Origin: Pelosinus sp. UFO1
Lineage (GTDB): Bacteria > Bacillota > Negativicutes > DSM-13327
Assembly: GCF_000725345.1 (NCBI RefSeq)
Contig: NZ_CP008852.1
Coordinates: 796,001-860,000, forward strand
Length of the DNA stretch: 64,000 bases
Reading direction: 5' to 3'
The notes under the pieces were generated by a model, which saw only the letters and a program-made list of their open reading frames with translations, ran no database searches and was not told the origin of the DNA. Each line of letters starts with the position of its first letter. Within the stretch, counting starts at the first letter, position 1. A program made the position numbers and the translations under genes. Shown here one piece after another: positions 8,663 to 37,367 of this stretch.

Positions 8663-8750
8663 AAATTTATTCAACTATTAAAAAAGTAGAACAATAAATA
8701 GTTATAAGCTAAACTTTTTCGAAAAGAAGCTGTTTTATCCGATAGCTAAC

Positions 8751-8876
8751 CCGCTCTAATACGCCCACCTCTATAAGCGGTGCATAAAGAGCGGCTAAGC
8801 TCCTGGATAACGTCGACTAAGATTCAGTTGGAGTTTTAAATCCAACTGAATCTTAGTCGACGTTATCAGGAGAAGT
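8751..8876. repeat. Composite two-hairpin structured element, copy 1
   Basis: First a hairpin closed by CCGCTCT (8751-8757) and AGAGCGG (8788-8794) with a smaller CACC/GGTG stem inside. Then a linker, CTAAGCTCCTGGATAA. Then a very long hairpin of about 31 bp whose left arm runs CGTCGACTAAGATTCAGT and on, with the mirror arm ending TTAGTCGACG and a TTTTAAA-like loop. The same design with changed stem bases recurs at 15971. It has no ORF and no clear transposon ends. It may act as a terminator or boundary between the divergent genes. Confidence 0.7.
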
Positions 8877-8885
8877 AAATTTTGC

Positions 8886-8913
8886 ATAAGATTTTGTTAT
8901 GAAATGATAAGTT
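8886..8913. promoter_or_regulatory. Candidate LysR operator, copy 2
   Basis: Begins ATAAGATTTTGTTATGA and ends ATAAGTT, matching copy 1 in nearly every base outside a 4-base variable core. It lies about 115 bases upstream of the lyase start and so could position the regulator at the lyase promoter. Confidence 0.5.
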
Positions 8914-9026
8914 GCCGATATTTCACTGTTAATTCTGAAAATGATAACATTTAGTCAAGGTTATTCATTGCTTGCGCTATGTGCGCAGGGGGAGTGCTGA
9001 ACGAAATTTCGAAAGGGGTTTTATAA

Positions 9027-10373
9027 ATGCCATCAACAACAATTGACAGTCAAATTTTTGGATGTCTATTTAGTACTGACAAAATGAGGGAAATATTCAG
9101 TGATAAGAATATGGCTCAGAAATGGCTGGATACAGAAGCTGCACTGGCAAAAGCACAGGGCGAACTCGGTATTATCCCAAAAGAGAAAGCCGATGAAATT
9201 AATGCGAAAGCCAATGCGGAATTATTAAATATTCCACAGATTGGTGAAAACTACAAAAGTTCAATAACTATAGTACCGTTATTAAAAGAATTTAAAAAAG
9301 TATTGGACGGAAATGCCGGTGAATATGTTCACTGGGGTGCAACTAGTCACGATATTGTAGATACTGGACTGGTTCTACAGATGAAAGAAGCGTATGCCGT
9401 CATCTTAGAACAAATGAAAGCATGTCAAAAATCGACACTGAAGTTAGCCAGAGAGCATCGCGATACCATTATGTGTGGTCGTACCCACGTAATTCATGCA
9501 TTACCTATTACTCTTGGTTATAAAGTAGCGATCTGGGCAGATGAATTGGGCAGAAATATTCAGCGTTTAGAAGAAATTAAAGACCGAGTTTTTGTCGGCG
9601 AACTAGGTGGTGCTGTAGGCACACTTGCATCACATCCGGAAAAAGGACTTGAAGTCCAAGAAAGAATGATGGAAATTTTAGGTCTGAATGTTCCGGCAAT
9701 TGCTTGGCATGTAGCACGGGACAGTCAAGCAGAATTTGTTAGCGTACTTGCTATTTGTGCAGGTACAATCGGCAGAATTGCCAGCGAAATTCTTTCCTTG
9801 CAGAGAACTGAAATTATTGAATTAGAAGAGCCATTTTTCATGGGGAAAGTGGGTTCTAGTACCATGCCTCATAAACGCAATCCGCAAGTCGTTGAGAATA
9901 TTATCGCTGTTTGTCGTAGCGTTAGAAGTATAGCTCCGGCAATTGTAGAAAGCATGGTAAGTGAAAATGAACGTGACTGGGGCTGCTTCCTTACCGAATG
10001 GGAAGCAATTCCACGTGCTTGCCATCTCATGGGCGCAGCACTAGAAAAATCCATGGATGTATTAGAAAATTTAATCGTTTATCCAAAACATATGGAAGCA
10101 AACTTAAACAAATTAAGAGGCATAATGATGTCAGAATGTGTAATGATGCATTTAGCGCCTAAATTAGGGCGGATGACAGCCCACGATATTGTTTACAGGA
10201 CTTGTATGAAAGCATATGAAGAAGAAGAGCAGATGGACATAGCATTAAAGGCTGAACCCAAGGTCCGCGAAGCCTTTACCGACGAAGAAATTGCCGATAT
10301 GATAAACCCTCGGAAATATATTGGTTATGCGCCGCAATTTGCTGATCGTGTTCTTGCCAAATATAAAGCATAA
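9027..10373 (+). CDS. Aspartase/fumarase-superfamily lyase (adenylosuccinate lyase-like)
   Basis: 448-aa soluble lyase of the fumarase/aspartase superfamily, which eliminates fumarate-like products from N- or C-substituted succinates. The superfamily signature GSSTMPHKRNP lies near residues 275-285 on the flexible catalytic loop; GATSHDIVDT (about 103-112) and GRTHVIHALP (about 150-160) supply other active-site residues. It is most like the PurB/PcaB branch. Placement beside a LysR regulator and two dicarboxylate carriers, away from purine genes, argues for a catabolic substrate rather than adenylosuccinate. The exact substrate is unknown. GAAAGGGG precedes the ATG. Confidence 0.85.
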   Translation: MPSTTIDSQIFGCLFSTDKMREIFSDKNMAQKWLDTEAALAKAQGELGIIPKEKADEINAKANAELLNIPQIGENYKSSITIVPLLKEFKKVLDGNAGEYVHWGATSHDIVDTGLVLQMKEAYAVILEQMKACQKSTLKLAREHRDTIMCGRTHVIHALPITLGYKVAIWADELGRNIQRLEEIKDRVFVGELGGAVGTLASHPEKGLEVQERMMEILGLNVPAIAWHVARDSQAEFVSVLAICAGTIGRIASEILSLQRTEIIELEEPFFMGKVGSSTMPHKRNPQVVENIIAVCRSVRSIAPAIVESMVSENERDWGCFLTEWEAIPRACHLMGAALEKSMDVLENLIVYPKHMEANLNKLRGIMMSECVMMHLAPKLGRMTAHDIVYRTCMKAYEEEEQMDIALKAEPKVREAFTDEEIADMINPRKYIGYAPQFADRVLAKYKA

Positions 10374-10401
10374 CACATTTCAATAAATGTCCGAATTAAC
10401 G

Positions 10402-10450
10402 GGCGTATGCCGTAATAATTATGTGAATTTTCATTTATACGGCATACGCC
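10402..10450 (+). terminator. 13-bp hairpin after the lyase gene
   Basis: GGCGTATGCCGTA (10402-10414) pairs perfectly with TACGGCATACGCC (10438-10450). No T-run follows, so it may be a partial terminator or an mRNA 3'-end stabiliser inside the lyase-transporter operon. Confidence 0.55.
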
Positions 10451-10522
10451 TGGTTTCTAAGTTATAGTCAACATTTGTAGCAGATAAATTGGAATTTCTA
10501 AAAAAGGATGTGAGATAATGCC

Positions 10523-11932
10523 ATGAGCAAAGATATGCGTAATGGATTAATTGTATTGGCTGTTGGCGCCGTTATATGGTTCATGCCGGTTCCGGCAGGT
10601 TTAAAGGTGCAGGCGTGGCACTTATTCGCCATATTCGTGACTACGATTTTAGGCTATATTCTCCAGCCCTTGCCCATAGGCGCAATTGCCTTTATTGCTG
10701 TTACCTTTAGCGCTCTGTCCGGAACACTGAAGGTGGCAGAGGCTCTGATGGGCTATGGCAACGGGACAATGTGGCTGATTGTCTCAGCGTTTTTGTTTGC
10801 CCGCGGTTTTATAAAAAGCGGCCTGGGCCGAAGAATCGCTTTTGTTATTATTAAATTTATAGGCAGGTCTTCCTTGACCCTCGGTTATGCAATTACGCTT
10901 AGTGATTTTGTGATATCACCGGCAACGCCTTCCAGTGCAGCGCGGGCTGGTGGTATTATCTTCCCGATTATCAAGGGGTTATCTTCGGCCCTTGACTCTG
11001 AACCAGGGCCGACAGCTCGTAGATTTGGCGCCTATATCATGCTGGTTGAATATCATGCCAATGCCATTACCTGTGCCATGTTTATGACGGCTATGGCGGC
11101 CAATCCTCTTTCCGTTGAGATTGCCTCTAAAGCAATCGGCGTGCAGCTTACCTGGACTTCATGGGCTGTGGCCGCCTTTGTTCCCGGTGCTGTTTCTTTG
11201 CTGCTGATTCCGTACATTCTCTATAAACTGTATCCGCCGGAAATTAAGATGATGCCGGAGGCCAAAGGCTTAGCGATTAAGGAACTGGAAGCAATGGGAC
11301 CCATGACGAAAATGGAAAAAATTGTATCATTGGTATTTATAGGAGCAATGATCATGTGGGCGACCTCAGAAATTACCCATATTGAAGCAACTGTTGTCGC
11401 CATGAGCGCCGTTTGTGTCATGGTTATTTGTCAGGTACTTACCTGGCAGGATGTAATTGGTGAGAAAGGCGCATGGGATACGCTGTTTTGGATGGGTTCC
11501 CTTGTTGCTTTGGCAACAGAACTGGCAAAATCCGGCTTCATTGCATGGATTGCAAAATCGGCAGGGGTAGTAATTACGGCATCCGGTTTATCTTGGATCA
11601 TGGCCTTTGGCTTGCTGATTATAATTTACGTATATTCTCACTATGGCTTTGCTAGTGTTACTGCACATATTAGCGCGATGTACGCAGCGTTTATTGCCAT
11701 TTCTGTAGGGGCAGGGGCACCGCCGCTTCTTGCGGCATTAGCTTTTGCTTTTCTATCTAATGTTATGATACCCTTGACCCATTATAGCGGTTCGGCAGGT
11801 CCAATTCTCTTTGGCGCGGGCTATGTAACACAAGGGGAATGGTGGCGAATGGGTTTTATACTTACCACCATTAATGTAATTATCTGGCTCGGTATAGGCG
11901 GTGCATGGTGGAAGGTTCTTGGTCTTTGGTAG
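10523..11932 (+). CDS. DASS-family (SLC13/CitT-type) dicarboxylate transporter
   Basis: 469-aa inner-membrane anion carrier with about 12-13 hydrophobic segments. The pattern AISPAT-like DFVISPATPSSAARAGGIIFP in the first half and SHYGFASVTAHISAMY plus NVMIPLTHYSGSAGPI in the second half fits the divalent anion:sodium symporter family that includes CitT and TtdT antiporters. It follows the lyase by 150 bases and is likely in the same unit, so it probably brings in the lyase substrate, perhaps in exchange for succinate or fumarate. An AAGGATG site precedes the ATG at a slightly long distance. Confidence 0.87.
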   Translation: MSKDMRNGLIVLAVGAVIWFMPVPAGLKVQAWHLFAIFVTTILGYILQPLPIGAIAFIAVTFSALSGTLKVAEALMGYGNGTMWLIVSAFLFARGFIKSGLGRRIAFVIIKFIGRSSLTLGYAITLSDFVISPATPSSAARAGGIIFPIIKGLSSALDSEPGPTARRFGAYIMLVEYHANAITCAMFMTAMAANPLSVEIASKAIGVQLTWTSWAVAAFVPGAVSLLLIPYILYKLYPPEIKMMPEAKGLAIKELEAMGPMTKMEKIVSLVFIGAMIMWATSEITHIEATVVAMSAVCVMVICQVLTWQDVIGEKGAWDTLFWMGSLVALATELAKSGFIAWIAKSAGVVITASGLSWIMAFGLLIIIYVYSHYGFASVTAHISAMYAAFIAISVGAGAPPLLAALAFAFLSNVMIPLTHYSGSAGPILFGAGYVTQGEWWRMGFILTTINVIIWLGIGGAWWKVLGLW

Positions 11933-12008
11933 TAAAATTGCAAACTGGATAAATATTAAAGCAAGAAGGCACAAATAACACAAGACTCATAATTTAGGAG
12001 GGGAATTT

Positions 12009-13343
12009 ATGCCTAATCATTTGGTGCAAACACCGACGGAAGGGCCTCCAAACTCTTCGGCTACGCCTTTCTATGCGGGGTTGGGTTTTCAAGTTACAGC
12101 TGGAATTGTATTAGGTTTGGCATTAGGCTTTATCGCACCTAAAATAGCTATCGACATGAAGGTGCTAGGCGACATCTTCTTGCGTCTCATCAAGATGGTA
12201 GTGGCTCCACTGGTATTCTTAAGTGTTGTGCATGGTATCACTTCTGCTGGAGACATGAAAAGTGTTGGTCGTATCGGTTTGCGAGCTATTATTTATTTCG
12301 AAATTGTTTCAACGATAGTATTGATCATTAGCATGATCATTGCCAACTTTGCCGATCTCGGTACGTCTATGCACTTAACCGCTACGGCAGCGGCGAAAGC
12401 GGAAGCGGCGGCTAAATACGCAAAGAGTGGCGGTGGGATGACCATGCAACACTTTGTTGAAACGATTGTTCCCGAGAATTTCCTAGGGGCGTTTACTACT
12501 GGTGGATTACTTCAGGTTTTAACAATTTCAATCGGTTTTGGTGCTGCTGTTTTAATGCTAAAACCTGAGCAACGACTCGACGTTGAAAAATCACTGGCCC
12601 AAATGTCGGAGTGCTTTTTCAAGTTTGTTGATGTCATCATGAAATTCTCGCCATTCGGCGCATTTGGTGCCATTGCCTATTCCATTGGTAGCAGTGGCAT
12701 GACAGCTGTGATCTCCCTCGGATATTTACTGTTCGTTATGTATGCCGCGCTGGCATTCGTCATTATTGCTGTTTTCGGCATCATCATGCGCATCTATGGC
12801 TTTAATCACTTTAGGTTTCTGCGGTATTTCAAGGAAGAAATCGTAATTCTGTTTGCTACAGCATCATCCGAAAGTGTTTTACCCAGGCTCATTGAAAAAT
12901 TGCCAAAACTGGGATGTTCAAAACAATCCGTCGGTTTGGTGATTCCCACCGGATATGCATTTAACCTTGACGGCACCTCTGTCTATATGCCGCTGTGCAC
13001 ACTGTTTCTTGCCAACGCATATGGTGTCAGCCTCGACTTTCAGCAGCAAGTCGGAATTGTTTTGATCATGCTGTTAACCTCTAAAGGAGCAGCAACCGTC
13101 TCCGGAGGGACATTCATCGTTTTTGCTGCAACAGTGACGGCGTCCGGAATTCTTCCAGTTGAAGGGTTGCCGTTATTATTTGGTATCAATCGGTTTACGT
13201 CTCAAGCCGTGTGCGTTTGCAATGCTATGGGTAACGCCGTAGCAACAATGGTCGTCTCGAAATCCTCTGGCGAGTTTGACGCCAACACAGCGAGAATCGA
13301 GTATCAACAAACATTCGGAAAAGAGATTGGCCAAATAATATAA
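12009..13343 (+). CDS. DctA-type dicarboxylate/amino acid:cation symporter
   Basis: 444-aa carrier of the DAACS family (DctA/GltP). Eight hydrophobic segments with the two re-entrant loops are recognisable; conserved motifs include GYAFNLDGTSVYMPL and SKGAATVSGGTFIVFAAT, and MGNAVATMVVSK near the C-terminus, which form the substrate and cation sites. An alanine/lysine-rich insert (about residues 125-140) lies in an external loop. A TAGGAGGGG site precedes the ATG. It is the third gene of the lyase cluster and would take up C4-dicarboxylates or acidic amino acids by proton or sodium symport. Confidence 0.9.
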   Translation: MPNHLVQTPTEGPPNSSATPFYAGLGFQVTAGIVLGLALGFIAPKIAIDMKVLGDIFLRLIKMVVAPLVFLSVVHGITSAGDMKSVGRIGLRAIIYFEIVSTIVLIISMIIANFADLGTSMHLTATAAAKAEAAAKYAKSGGGMTMQHFVETIVPENFLGAFTTGGLLQVLTISIGFGAAVLMLKPEQRLDVEKSLAQMSECFFKFVDVIMKFSPFGAFGAIAYSIGSSGMTAVISLGYLLFVMYAALAFVIIAVFGIIMRIYGFNHFRFLRYFKEEIVILFATASSESVLPRLIEKLPKLGCSKQSVGLVIPTGYAFNLDGTSVYMPLCTLFLANAYGVSLDFQQQVGIVLIMLLTSKGAATVSGGTFIVFAATVTASGILPVEGLPLLFGINRFTSQAVCVCNAMGNAVATMVVSKSSGEFDANTARIEYQQTFGKEIGQII

Positions 13344-13374
13344 ATATTAATTCTGATAACGATGTGAAAAAACA

Positions 13375-13427
13375 AAAGCTACAGGTTGGCACTACTAGGA
13401 GGTGCTACCCTGTAACTTTATCTTTTC
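13375..13427 (+). terminator. Terminator after the dctA-like gene
   Basis: An 18-base arm starting AAAGCTACAGG (from 13375) pairs with an arm ending CCTGTAACTTT (to 13419), with G-U pairs, then a T-rich tail. Confidence 0.7.
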
Positions 13428-13539
13428 AAATGGAATTTGTACATACGTTAATTAGGTTGAATTAAGATACTAAAAAAAGATGTAAGGATATGACGAACGA
13501 TATTTAATAGGGTCAATATTAAGATTGGAGAGGTTGAAA

Positions 13540-15504
13540 ATGAGCATAAGAACAAAAATAATTTGTCTGTTGGTAAGTATGATCTTTGCTACAGGAATTT
13601 TGCTCAGTGGTACATATTTATATTCGTTGTATCAGTCTGTGCACGAAGATAATAAAGTAAATCTCCATAATCAAGCACTTCAACTCTCAGATGCTGTTGA
13701 CGCTTATGTTTCTTGTATAAAGAGTACAGGACTAGCAATATCGATGAATCCAATCATTGAAAAAGGTGATTTTATTGCGAAGCAAGCGCAACTAGAATAT
13801 TTTTTCAAGGCCATTCCAGGTGTCTACATTCTATCAATTACCGATATAAATGGTTCAGTTGTTAATACCTATCCATATAGTGCCAAGGCAATAAGCGCAA
13901 GTCGTGCTGATCGTGATTATTTTAAGGCTGTAATGACGACAGGGCAGCCCCAAATTAGTGATGTAATCGTATCGAAGGATACGGGCAAAGTTGCAATTGT
14001 GTTTGCATATCCGATAAAAAGTGATAACGCAGTAACTGGAATGCTGATTCAAGGTGTAGAGGTAGATTATTTGCAGTCTATAATTAGCAAAGAGCAGATT
14101 GGTAAGACTGGATATGCTGAAATAATCTCACCATCTGGTAAATTTGTCGCTCATAAAAACAAAGAATGGGTAATTGAAGGAAAAACAATTTCAGAAGAGG
14201 TAAAAGCATTAATAAAGGACTCTTCAATTATAGCTAATGAAATAACGGATGAAACAGGCGAAAAAAATATTGCAGCCGTAAATTCGGTGCCATCCTCAGG
14301 CTGGAGTGTTTTAGTAAATGTACCCAAGAAAGAAATATTAGAGAACTTTTATCATAGTTTAAAATCATCATTAATTATTTTATTTACGCTGGCCATACTA
14401 CTATCATTTTTATCATGGATAATTTTAAAACAAATGTTGCAACATCTTTCTATGATTATGGAGTTTATTGGATATTTAGGCGATGGAGAATTAAGAAAGA
14501 AACTTTCAATTAACGCATCAGGAGAACTGGGGCAATTAGCCAATGAAGTCAATAAAACGATCGATAAAATGCGTGATGTTACATTTAATCTAGTAAAGCA
14601 TTCTGAACATATAGCAGCATCTTCTGAAGAAATGACAGCGGGTGCTGAACAGTCCGCTCAAGCCTCAAACCAAGTAGCTGTATCTATTACGGAAGTTGCA
14701 CAAAGAGTAAATGAACAATTAAAACTTGTAGATTCTACAGTAGAAGTTGTTGAGGAAATATCAAAAGAAATTCAACAAGTTTCGCAAAAAGCAATGATCG
14801 TTTCTGAATCGGTAAAAAGGACAGAGCAAGCGGCTAATGATGGTGAGCGTTCTATAGAAACAGCAGTACGTCAAATGGGTGTAATTGAAGAAAAGACATA
14901 TGAGACTGCAAATGTAATTGGCGAATTAGAAGAAAAATCAAAACAAATTGGTCAAATTGTTGAAGCAATAGCTGCAATTGCAGGACAAACCAATCTTTTA
15001 GCACTGAATGCGGCGATTGAAGCAGCAAGAGCTGGAGAAACAGGAAGAGGTTTTGCTGTTGTTGCTGATGAAGTTCGTAAACTTGCTGAACAGTCGCAAG
15101 AATTCGCAAAACAAATTGCTACCTTAATTGCTGAAATTCAACAAAAAACTAATAATGCAGTACTATTTATGAATGAAGGTAGAAAGGAAGTCAATCGAGG
15201 TTCAGAAGTTGTAAATCTAGCAGGAAAAAGTTTTCGAGAAATTATTCAGATGATTAGAGAAATATCAAATCAGATACAAGGAATATCTGCTGCAACTCAG
15301 CAGATAATGAGCGGAGCTGAAAATGTGGTAAATGCTGTGCAAGGGATTGATAAAGAAAGTAAAATTATTGCGGAACAAACAGAAACAGTGTCAGCGGCGA
15401 CAGAGGAGCAATCGGCATCTATGGAAGAAATTGCGTCGGCGAGTCAATCATTGGCTACAATGGCAGAAGAGTTACAAAAAATAATAGGAATGTTTAAAGT
15501 TTAA
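13540..15504 (+). CDS. Cache-domain methyl-accepting chemotaxis protein
   Basis: 654-aa chemoreceptor. A membrane segment at about residues 8-30 is followed by an extracytoplasmic double-Cache-type sensor (about 35-275), a second membrane segment (about 278-300), a HAMP linker and a long coiled-coil signalling domain. The tip motif is present around [20 protein letters not shown] followed by [18 protein letters not shown], which binds CheA/CheW. A TTG 15 bases upstream is in frame, but the ATG at 13540 has GGAGAGG (13527-13533). Dicarboxylate transport genes just upstream suggest an organic acid ligand, which is inference. No che genes are in the window. Confidence 0.94.
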
Positions 15505-15532
15505 AAAACATTTAAAAATAGATAGTGAAAAA

Positions 15533-15584
15533 TACCCTCTCTTGTAGAATTTCAGTTATGAAATGGACAAGAGGGGGTAGTTTT
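15533..15584 (+). terminator. Terminator after the chemoreceptor gene
   Basis: TACCCTCTCTTGT (15533-15545) pairs with ACAAGAGGGGGTA (15567-15579), followed by a short T-run. Confidence 0.85.
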
Positions 15585-15696
15585 ATATGATTTGGACATT
15601 TCAAGGAGAGGAATAGATATGGAAGGCCTTGATGAACACTAATTAACTTTTCATCATATTATGTTATATAGAGCTTAAAAAGGGGGGCTATTATTT

Positions 15697-15981
15697 ATGA
15701 GGCAATACGGACCTCCGACCTCTCCGCCACCAACAGTTATTCCCCCAAAACCATCATATTCTTATATCATTGATTGCTTGTACTACACCACTTATGTATG
15801 GTTTAAGAATGGAAGACAATTTTGGTTTTATCCAACAAGCGTAGAGTATGGTGCAGTTACGGGCTATAGATGGACTGGAAGGCATTGGACTTTCTATGGT
15901 TTCGACTCAAGATTGATTGATGAGGTCGCATGTTTGGTTCCTACACCATATCGTAATTTATCCGATGACAAGTCGCTCTAA
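15697..15981 (+). CDS. Conserved small hypothetical protein, proline-rich N-terminus
   Basis: 94-aa protein with N-terminal MRQYGPPTSPPPTVIPPKP, then an aromatic-rich body (YTTYVWFKNGRQFWFYP, GYRWTGRHWTFYGFD). I know this pattern from small conserved proteins of spore-forming Firmicutes; function is unknown. A strong AAGGGGGG site lies upstream. The last codons and the stop (15971-15981) fall inside the first arm of a repeat element, so the native C-terminus was probably replaced when that element arrived. Confidence 0.75.
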   Translation: MRQYGPPTSPPPTVIPPKPSYSYIIDCLYYTTYVWFKNGRQFWFYPTSVEYGAVTGYRWTGRHWTFYGFDSRLIDEVACLVPTPYRNLSDDKSL

Positions 15982-16080
15982 GACTCCCATCTTCTCCAAG
16001 TGGGAGTCAAGAGCGACTAAGTCTCTGGATAAGTGCGACTAAGATCCAGATGGAGTTAAAACTCCACCTGAATAAAGTCT
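15971..16080. repeat. Composite two-hairpin structured element, copy 2
   Basis: The outer stem AGTCGCTCT (15971-15979) pairs with AGAGCGACT (16010-16018) around an inner stem GACTCCCA/TGGGAGTC. A linker CTAAGTCTCTGGATAA follows, then a hairpin CAGATGGAGT/ACTCCACCTG with a TTAAA loop preceded by GCGACTAAGAT. It matches copy 1 in order, linker and loop, while several stem pairs differ on both sides together. Confidence 0.7.
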
Positions 16081-16101
16081 TCTTTATAAGCTAACTTTAG
16101 C

Positions 16102-37115: not shown

Positions 37116-37290
37116 GTGCGCCCAGCATGGGCGCTTACTAGTCGATGTAAGTCCGATACAGGGGCTGATAGTGCCAACCTTAGCTTAAGACAAGGCTCCC
37201 CATCGTGAGGTGAAATCTGAAGGAAATTGGTGGCAAAGCTCTGCTCCGCATACCAAGAATATGATTGGCTGTGACTTATATCATAGCGTA
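37116..37290 (+). mobile_element. 5' remnant of a group II intron
   Basis: Begins GTGCGCCCAGCATGGGCG, the 5' end of a large class of bacterial group II introns, and continues through domain I landmarks: GTAAGTCC, TTAGCTTAAGACAAGG, ATCGTGAGGTGAAATCTGAAG and GGTGGCAAAGC. No reverse transcriptase ORF and no domain V/VI or 3' end were found, so it is dead. It lies right behind a terminator hairpin, the preferred target of group IIC introns. Confidence 0.8.
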
Positions 37291-37367
37291 GTAGATGCAG
37301 TCTGTTTTATCACTAGTTATGATATTGATTAAAAATAAAGTGACTTAATAACTGTAAGGGTGATGTA

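Follow-up and report, generated by a model that had tools for sequence, protein, structure and literature searches.

A two-hairpin repeat of Pelosinus sp. UFO1 and other Bacillota that inserts 3' of TTTAT and may be moved in trans

A 64,000-nucleotide stretch of the 5.1-Mb single-contig genome of Pelosinus sp. UFO1 (the stretch is here called the window, and the genome is labeled G000) contains two copies of a short, gene-less repeat with two subterminal hairpins and fixed ends, CCGAT...TTTAT. Since this lineage and that of the close relative G006 parted, the element has moved; insertion takes place 3' of TTTAT or a close variant of it, always in the same orientation and with nothing read on the right, and the hairpins have been kept by compensatory change across the phylum. 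The reading we favor, with moderate confidence, is that of a non-autonomous element resembling the palindrome-associated transposable elements (PATEs), equipped with BOX-like modules and moved in trans by a single-strand mechanism of the HUH type.

The commonest short form, of about 126 bp, reads TTTAT followed by CCGATGACTAAACCGCTCTAAGACTCCC...GGGAGTTAAGAGCGGCTAAGTCCCTGGATAAGTGCGACTAAGATTCAGATGGAGTTAAAACTCCATCTGAATCAAGTCTTCTTTAT, and the loop of hairpin 1 holds 0 to 4 tandem modules of ~100 bp, which make up the longer forms. A covariance model built from 34 copies, with which 150 of 1298 first-look candidates were scored in G000, gives at least 54 copies in that genome at 54.5 bits or more, which is a lower bound, and BLAST likewise finds dozens; weaker model matches elsewhere in the genome, for example at 520656, 1665406, 1745708, and 2846885, are not counted among the 54. 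Copy lengths in G000 run from 131 to 538 bp including one TTTAT, which is too short for a transposase gene, and some copies in other genomes are shorter. None of the 54 counted copies lies between about 1.50 and 2.84 Mb of G000:C1, a stretch of 1.35 Mb around the replication terminus (2.3-2.45 Mb by GC skew) that holds two weak model matches at 1.67 and 1.75 Mb; the probability of this by chance is ~6e-8, calculated post hoc.

Empty sites and the target rule

Movement was read from the joined 50+50 bp flanks of 28 of 43 G000 sites, compared with the genomes G006, G004, and G003. G006 is element-free at 12 of the 28, of which eight align across the junction with few changes and four with small adjoining gaps, and of the remaining 16 sites 14 are occupied in G006, one (L077) is element-free with a further deletion, and one (L018) is ambiguous. 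The site of L075 is empty in G003 and G004 as well as in G006, and because the first two are also element-free, the G000 copy at L075 represents the derived state.

The target was examined at 134 insertions distinct by their flanks (three pairs look alike), for which CCGAT on the left and TTTAT on the right were required and the left 5-mer was free; copies with mutated element ends are thus missing from this set. The left 5-mer is TTTAT in 108 cases, ATTAT in 10, CTTAT in 6, GTTAT in 5, and TCTAT in 2, with three single others, and the information content at positions -1 to -5 is 2.00, 1.87, 1.87, 1.85, and 1.11 bits, while positions +1 to +12 carry at most 0.20 bits. Within G000 the left 5-mer differs from TTTAT in 6/43 copies and the right end in 0/43 (Fisher p=0.026). 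Three loci, L082, L087, and L088, had no acceptable left end. At the variant targets CTTAT (L075/L142) and TCTAT (L035/L150) the empty site holds a single copy of the 5-mer, and the right end of the filled site reads TTTAT, from which it follows that the right-hand TTTAT belongs to the element and that any target duplication is of at most 3 nt. Since the element brings its own right-end TTTAT, the target is regenerated and copies can stand head to tail on one TTTAT, an arrangement found at L328, L329, L220, and L243, with up to three copies in the last.

Such arrays bear on the possibility that the element is moved by a rolling-circle HUH enzyme of the IS91 or Helitron type, which would make head-to-tail copies directly. 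The two copies of L328 share departures from the consensus, and a one-sided target together with a hairpin near the 3' end fits the rolling-circle type; however, tandem copies are also expected from plain reuse of the right-end TTTAT as a target, and we consider this mechanism quite improbable.

The same target rule makes it very improbable that the element is a classical miniature inverted-repeat transposable element (MITE) of a DDE transposase with a target duplication of 2-3 nt (TA or TAT). From a DDE enzyme that duplicates TA one would expect insertions in either orientation, but here the target is one-sided and fixes the orientation, with a TTTAT-like signal on the left and no counterpart on the right. 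What speaks for such an enzyme is that a duplication of up to 3 nt is possible because target and right end share TAT, that GATGACT at the left end is weakly similar, by eye only, to GAAGACT at the reversed right end (GAWGACT; no clear terminal inverted repeats are apparent), and that one locus of genome G027 (L310:121-891) has a partial integrase-core (rve) open reading frame (ORF; PF00665, 25.3 bits against a curated 32.6) between two inverted element left ends. The latter ORF has no relative in the other loci examined and may be there by chance.

That the repeat does nothing more than terminate transcription or bound genes is extremely improbable. Copies lie between genes, some of them at gene ends, but the empty sites show insertion and so contradict such a role as the sole explanation, a consensus scan scored no terminator-like site inside either window copy, and copy 1 sits between divergent genes. 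By a heuristic that takes ORFs of at least 80 aa, the neighbors of the 54 G000 loci stand in all four arrangements (++ 16, -- 14, +- 13, -+ 10, one undetermined), and the element lies inside an ORF of that size at 0/54 loci. The preliminary description of the two window copies had proposed a non-coding RNA, a boundary element, or a MITE of an unfamiliar kind; the empty sites bear out a mobile element, while the one-sided target and a duplication of at most 3 nt speak against a classical MITE, and the lack of a scored terminator and the four gene arrangements speak against a boundary element or terminator. In several G000 copies a convergent ORF ends four bases inside the right end of the element, with its TAA stop in the TTTAT, and insertion at such a stop codon rebuilds the TAA stop via the right-end TTTAT.

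A conserved fold with a modular loop

Both window copies fold far better than 200 dinucleotide shuffles of each, with z values for copy 1 and copy 2 of -11.3 and -6.7 on the plus strand and -14.5 and -8.5 on the minus strand, and on the plus strand 0/200 shuffles folded as well in either case. An alignment of 34 copies from 17 genomes (A2; seven copies from G000), taken out of 50 short copies listed, has 91.5% of cells pairing and both sides changed in 18/47 pairs, and its covariation score of 0.190 compares with 0.120 +/- 0.005 in shuffles, 0/500 of which were as high. A second alignment of 32 chosen copies, which adds carriers from across the phylum (A3), scores 0.223 against 0.092 in shuffles, again with 0/500 as high; 94.5% of its cells pair, slid versions reach at most 47.2%, and double changes occur in 17/47 pairs. 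Two other measures are less clear in A3, as shuffles reached the number of double-change pairs in 4/500 cases and of further pair types in 22/500. The helix between the left-edge TTATCC and the internal GGATAA pairs in about 94-97% of cells (A2, and A3 with a helix that also includes the hairpin foot). Unpaired motifs beside the stems are conserved in the 32-copy alignment as well, and linker positions, among them TGGA of CTGGATAA, do not vary in any of the 32 copies, which sets aside the case of plain terminators lacking a conserved linker.

Such strong covariation, with conserved unpaired motifs flanking the stems on both sides, would also fit a structured RNA, whether one that acts in trans or in cis or one inserted through reverse splicing or reverse transcription, and the pairing possible between the left 5-mer and the internal GGATAA resembles in form the exon-binding site of an intron. 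From the sequence data we judge such an RNA to be improbable. G-U pairs outnumber A-C pairs 85 to 38 overall, but stand at 34 to 38 once two G-U-dominated columns are removed, and no single folded strand therefore stands out; the copies occur in every gene arrangement, and Rfam gave no match at gathering thresholds for the two window copies, with only weak matches, far below those thresholds, in other searches. Likeness to group I or II introns was considered and rejected, there being no GUGYG start and no domain V to be seen, with the search limited to Rfam.

The number of modules varies between loci and between genomes. By motif count, 0, 1, 2, and 4 modules are present in 22, 24, 6, and 1 of 53 G000 loci, respectively; L027 has a motif count of 0, yet its 235 bp is the length of a one-module form. 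By eye the modules fall into two types, GGATT-TTCG-AATCC and GGGTC-TCCG-GACCC, distinguished by paired changes in their stems. At sites filled in both G000 and G006 the flanks match and the length class differs at 9/14, the G000 copy being shorter at seven (L010, L012, L015, L016, L019, L020, L033) and longer at two (L027, L028), and the module type sometimes differs as well. We infer that modules are exchanged at filled sites, probably by recombination between copies and perhaps by a second element entering the right-end TTTAT and the resulting tandem collapsing; slippage alone would not be expected to give this result.

In Sporomusa malonica, loci such as L182:1040+ have another apical extension on hairpin 1 (CCTGTGCCCTTTAGGGTATAC / TATACCCAAAGGGCACAGG), and the apical part of this hairpin seems to be exchangeable between lineages. 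There are also single-hairpin derivatives, L166:2165+ and, on the minus strand, L230 and L174, that end straight after hairpin 1 in CTAAGTCTACTTTAT or similar and look as if hairpin 2 had been deleted between repeated CTAAGTC feet.

The element is found in many Bacillota genomes, with one fold across the phylum. It is present in 23/60 relatives and, at E<=1e-6, in 26/398 phylum-wide genomes, each count including G000, and the carriers include Sporomusa malonica, S. acidovorans, S. silvacetica, Pelosinus fermentans JBW45, Syntrophomonas wolfei subsp. methylbutyratica, Desulfosporosinus sp. PR, and a Massilibacillus metagenome-assembled genome. No match was found in viral contigs with the exact left-end pattern or in plasmids and phages by blastn of one copy, and none of the best-ranked openly accessible papers, as judged by titles and the openings of abstracts, describes the repeat.

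The two copies in the window

Both elements were read where the preliminary description had placed them (Table 1), with the same order of parts, that is, a nested hairpin, CTAAG, a linker with TGGATAA, CGACTAAGAT, and the second hairpin, and with the closing pairs changing together (CCGCTCT/AGAGCGG in copy 1 and TCGCTCT/AGAGCGA in copy 2). The lengths given for the second stem, ~31 bp in copy 1 and less in copy 2, also stand, but copy 2 is not "shortened," its stem being the normal form. Over about 31 bp the two arms of copy 1 are almost perfectly complementary, whereas the orthologue of this copy in G006 (L263) has a normal right end, GAATCAAGTCTAGTTTAT. This makes the long stem a later, lineage-specific change rather than the ancestral state, the right arm having been remade as the partner of the left. 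Template switching inside quasi-palindromes yields one arm rewritten as the complement of the other, and probably accounts for the right arm of copy 1.

Table 1. Features of the two element copies (window coordinates)
Feature	Position	Strand	Remarks
TTTAT target adjoining copy 1 on the left	8734..8738	+	same 5-mer at 108/134 insertions
Element copy 1, short form, no module, right end rewritten	8739..8866	+	model match G000:C1:804734-804866, 109.7 bits
Hairpin 1 of copy 1	8744..8801	+	outer stem CCGCTCT 8751-8757 / AGAGCGG 8788-8794
GGATAA linker, copy 1	8805..8810	+	complementary to left-edge TTATCC
Hairpin 2 of copy 1, ~31 bp, palindrome-corrected in this lineage	8800..8872	+	G006 orthologue L263: normal right end
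TTTAT target adjoining copy 2 on the left	15957..15961	+	
Element copy 2, short form	15962..16087	+	model match 811957-812087, 138.1 bits
Hairpin 1 of copy 2	15967..16023	+	
GGATAA linker of copy 2	16027..16032	+	
Hairpin 2 of copy 2	16037..16079	+	
Element's own right-end TTTAT, copy 2	16083..16087	+	TTTAT is the right end in 43/43 listed G000 copies

Copy 1 has a gene for a LysR-type regulator on one side and a divergent lyase-family gene on the other, and the 3' end of a 94-aa ORF with no Pfam match runs into copy 2, which has a convergent DUF2201 (VWA-like) gene opposite. Between the two copies, window positions 11975-15516 (~3.5 kb, in which ORFs of dicarboxylate transporter and chemoreceptor-like types were recognized by eye) are unmatched at the syntenic place in G006, with well-matched stretches on either side. 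Elsewhere in the window, positions 37199-37305 give a weak group II intron D1-D4-3 match (32.1 bits vs a gathering threshold of 32).

Mechanism and comparison with known systems

In the mechanism that we favor, the element would travel as folded single-stranded DNA by means of an HUH-type enzyme supplied in trans, for which ISDra2 and the PATEs serve as models. The insertions show that its left end is joined to the 3' side of a TTTAT-like 5-mer and that its own right-end TTTAT regenerates the target. The loop of hairpin 1 would tolerate cargo, and for this reason could hold 0 to 4 modules. The anatomy and the target rule point to such a single-strand mechanism, but the evidence on the enzyme falls short of proof, and as no parent was found the element cannot be placed firmly among the IS200/IS605-derived PATEs.

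Several results weigh against the favored mechanism. The enzyme that moves the element was not found in searches of carrier genomes for Y1 transposases, REP-associated tyrosine transposases (RAYTs; REP, repetitive extragenic palindromic), and TnpB. At the thresholds used, element ends are present at 0/20 RAYT loci and 0/10 further Y1 loci, and in a scan of 30 Y1 loci one (L116) has a degenerate right half only, near a Y1 frame of 71 aa. At E<=0.001 a single PF01797 match, the RAYT, was obtained in G000, to which another search adds a 196-aa partial RAYT and fragments, and six of the 11 RAYT-negative carriers (G404, G165, G181, G188, G333, G431) have no PF01797 match, two of which, G404 and G165, gave 68 and 67 first-look element candidates. 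TnpB (PF07282) had no match in 8/10 carriers searched, including G000, and was rejected as the parent, since at 2/6 fetched TnpB loci (L309 and L310, both in G027) it is near element copies but outside their ends. A replication-strand bias is expected for the IS200/IS605 family and, with replichore borders set by the GC skew of 19 stretches, was absent in G000 (23/54 copies co-directional, p=0.34); this counts weakly, and the table of IS605 elements in Halanaerobium lists both strands (PMC7290912). Finally, guide-target pairing of TTATCC with GGATAA was tried as a rule and rejected, for although the two are paired in most copies, GGATAA has drifted, for example to GGATCC in G404, while the target is still TTTAT, so that a simple guide rule is unsupported.

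An autonomous parent was sought with the exact left-end pattern in 82 contig stretches, which contained 85 left ends, and in 78/85 the right end is at most 300 bp away. The other seven (L166, L174, L196, L214, L218, one in L220, and L230) score poorly and look truncated, diverged, or of the one-hairpin kind. One candidate whose halves lie far apart, L228, turned out to be a pair of separate elements flanking a PhzF-like gene (named by eye). No gene was recognised between the ends of any copy, ORFs having been listed for part of the loci.

The REP sequences and REPINs are short, palindromic, non-autonomous repeats presumed to be moved by a Y1 enzyme (PMC8266576). The element too is short, palindromic, and non-autonomous, and RAYT is present in many carrier genomes, which raises the question of whether it resembles a REPIN and is mobilized by the RAYT (TnpAREP) of its host genome. 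Indeed, G000 carries one intact RAYT of 253 aa, and a RAYT homologue is present in 23/23 element-positive vs 7/37 element-negative relatives (Fisher p=1.7e-10, a value not corrected for relatedness). This association is not general, however, as phylum-wide a homologue (E<=0.001) was detected in 15/26 carriers vs 117/372 other genomes (p=0.009), leaving RAYT undetected in 11/26 carriers. The readable RAYT genes (18/20 loci) have G-rich/C-rich flanks of their own, by eye of the GGGGACGG, GGGGACAGG, or GGGTCAGGC types, in place of the element, and no GTAG (or CGTC) tag was seen by eye at the hairpin feet. Taken together, movement by the resident RAYT seems rather improbable. At the RAYT loci L122-L140 the G-rich/C-rich flanks (GGGGACGG/CCGTCCCC and similar) resemble RAYT's own repeat families.

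An alternative that we regard as unlikely, though deserving of some weight, is that the element represents a phylum-wide class of short structured mobile elements that enter after TTTAT, reshuffle their modules at fixed sites, and are moved by neither a Y1 (IS200/IS605 or RAYT) nor a DDE transposase, the fold being recognised by a novel enzyme or an RNA-based process. One fold with fixed ends can be traced across the phylum, its insertions can be dated, its target rule is sharp, and it forms tandem arrays and exchanges modules at shared sites; movement is therefore testable, and the copies offer clean substrates for an enzyme search.

In the case of the PATEs of Haloquadratum (PMC3119063) and Halanaerobium (PMC7290912), the available accounts describe gene-less elements with subterminal palindromes and a conserved terminal oligonucleotide, which are present in many copies with no long target duplication and are presumably moved in trans, and all of this resembles the element, for which the limit on duplication is 3 nt. 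The Haloquadratum PATEs are described as lacking inverted repeats, target duplication, and a transposase, and strain-specific insertions are reported even where all IS200-type genes of the strain are pseudogenes (PMC3119063). The element differs in having two hairpins with unlike stems, a fold and ends conserved across the phylum, and tandem modules in hairpin 1; a further difference, and one that tells against the mechanism we favor, is that no IS605-type parent with matching palindromes was found for it in the limited genomes searched and at the thresholds used.

ISDra2 is described as inserting 3' of TTGAT and requiring single-stranded DNA (PMC2806898), and the IS200/IS605 family as making no target duplication (PMC7290912). 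The element resembles ISDra2 and IS608 in that hairpins lie close to each end, a specific 5-mer directs insertion to its 3' side, and no target duplication (here, none above 3 nt) is made, but it has no tnpA/tnpB and no strand bias, and its supposed guide drifts in some lineages while the target stays. An IS605-like insertion rule joined to a BOX-like modular repeat is a combination not met in the accessible text of the PATE, ISDra2, BOX, and REPIN papers compared. The BOX elements of Streptococcus pneumoniae have, by their description, inverted repeats similar to those of ISSpn2 (PMC3049150), whereas the ends of our element are TTTAT-directed without clear inverted repeats, a comparison made by description; in both, two conserved outer parts enclose a variable number of tandem middle modules (PMC3049150), which in the element number 0 to 4.

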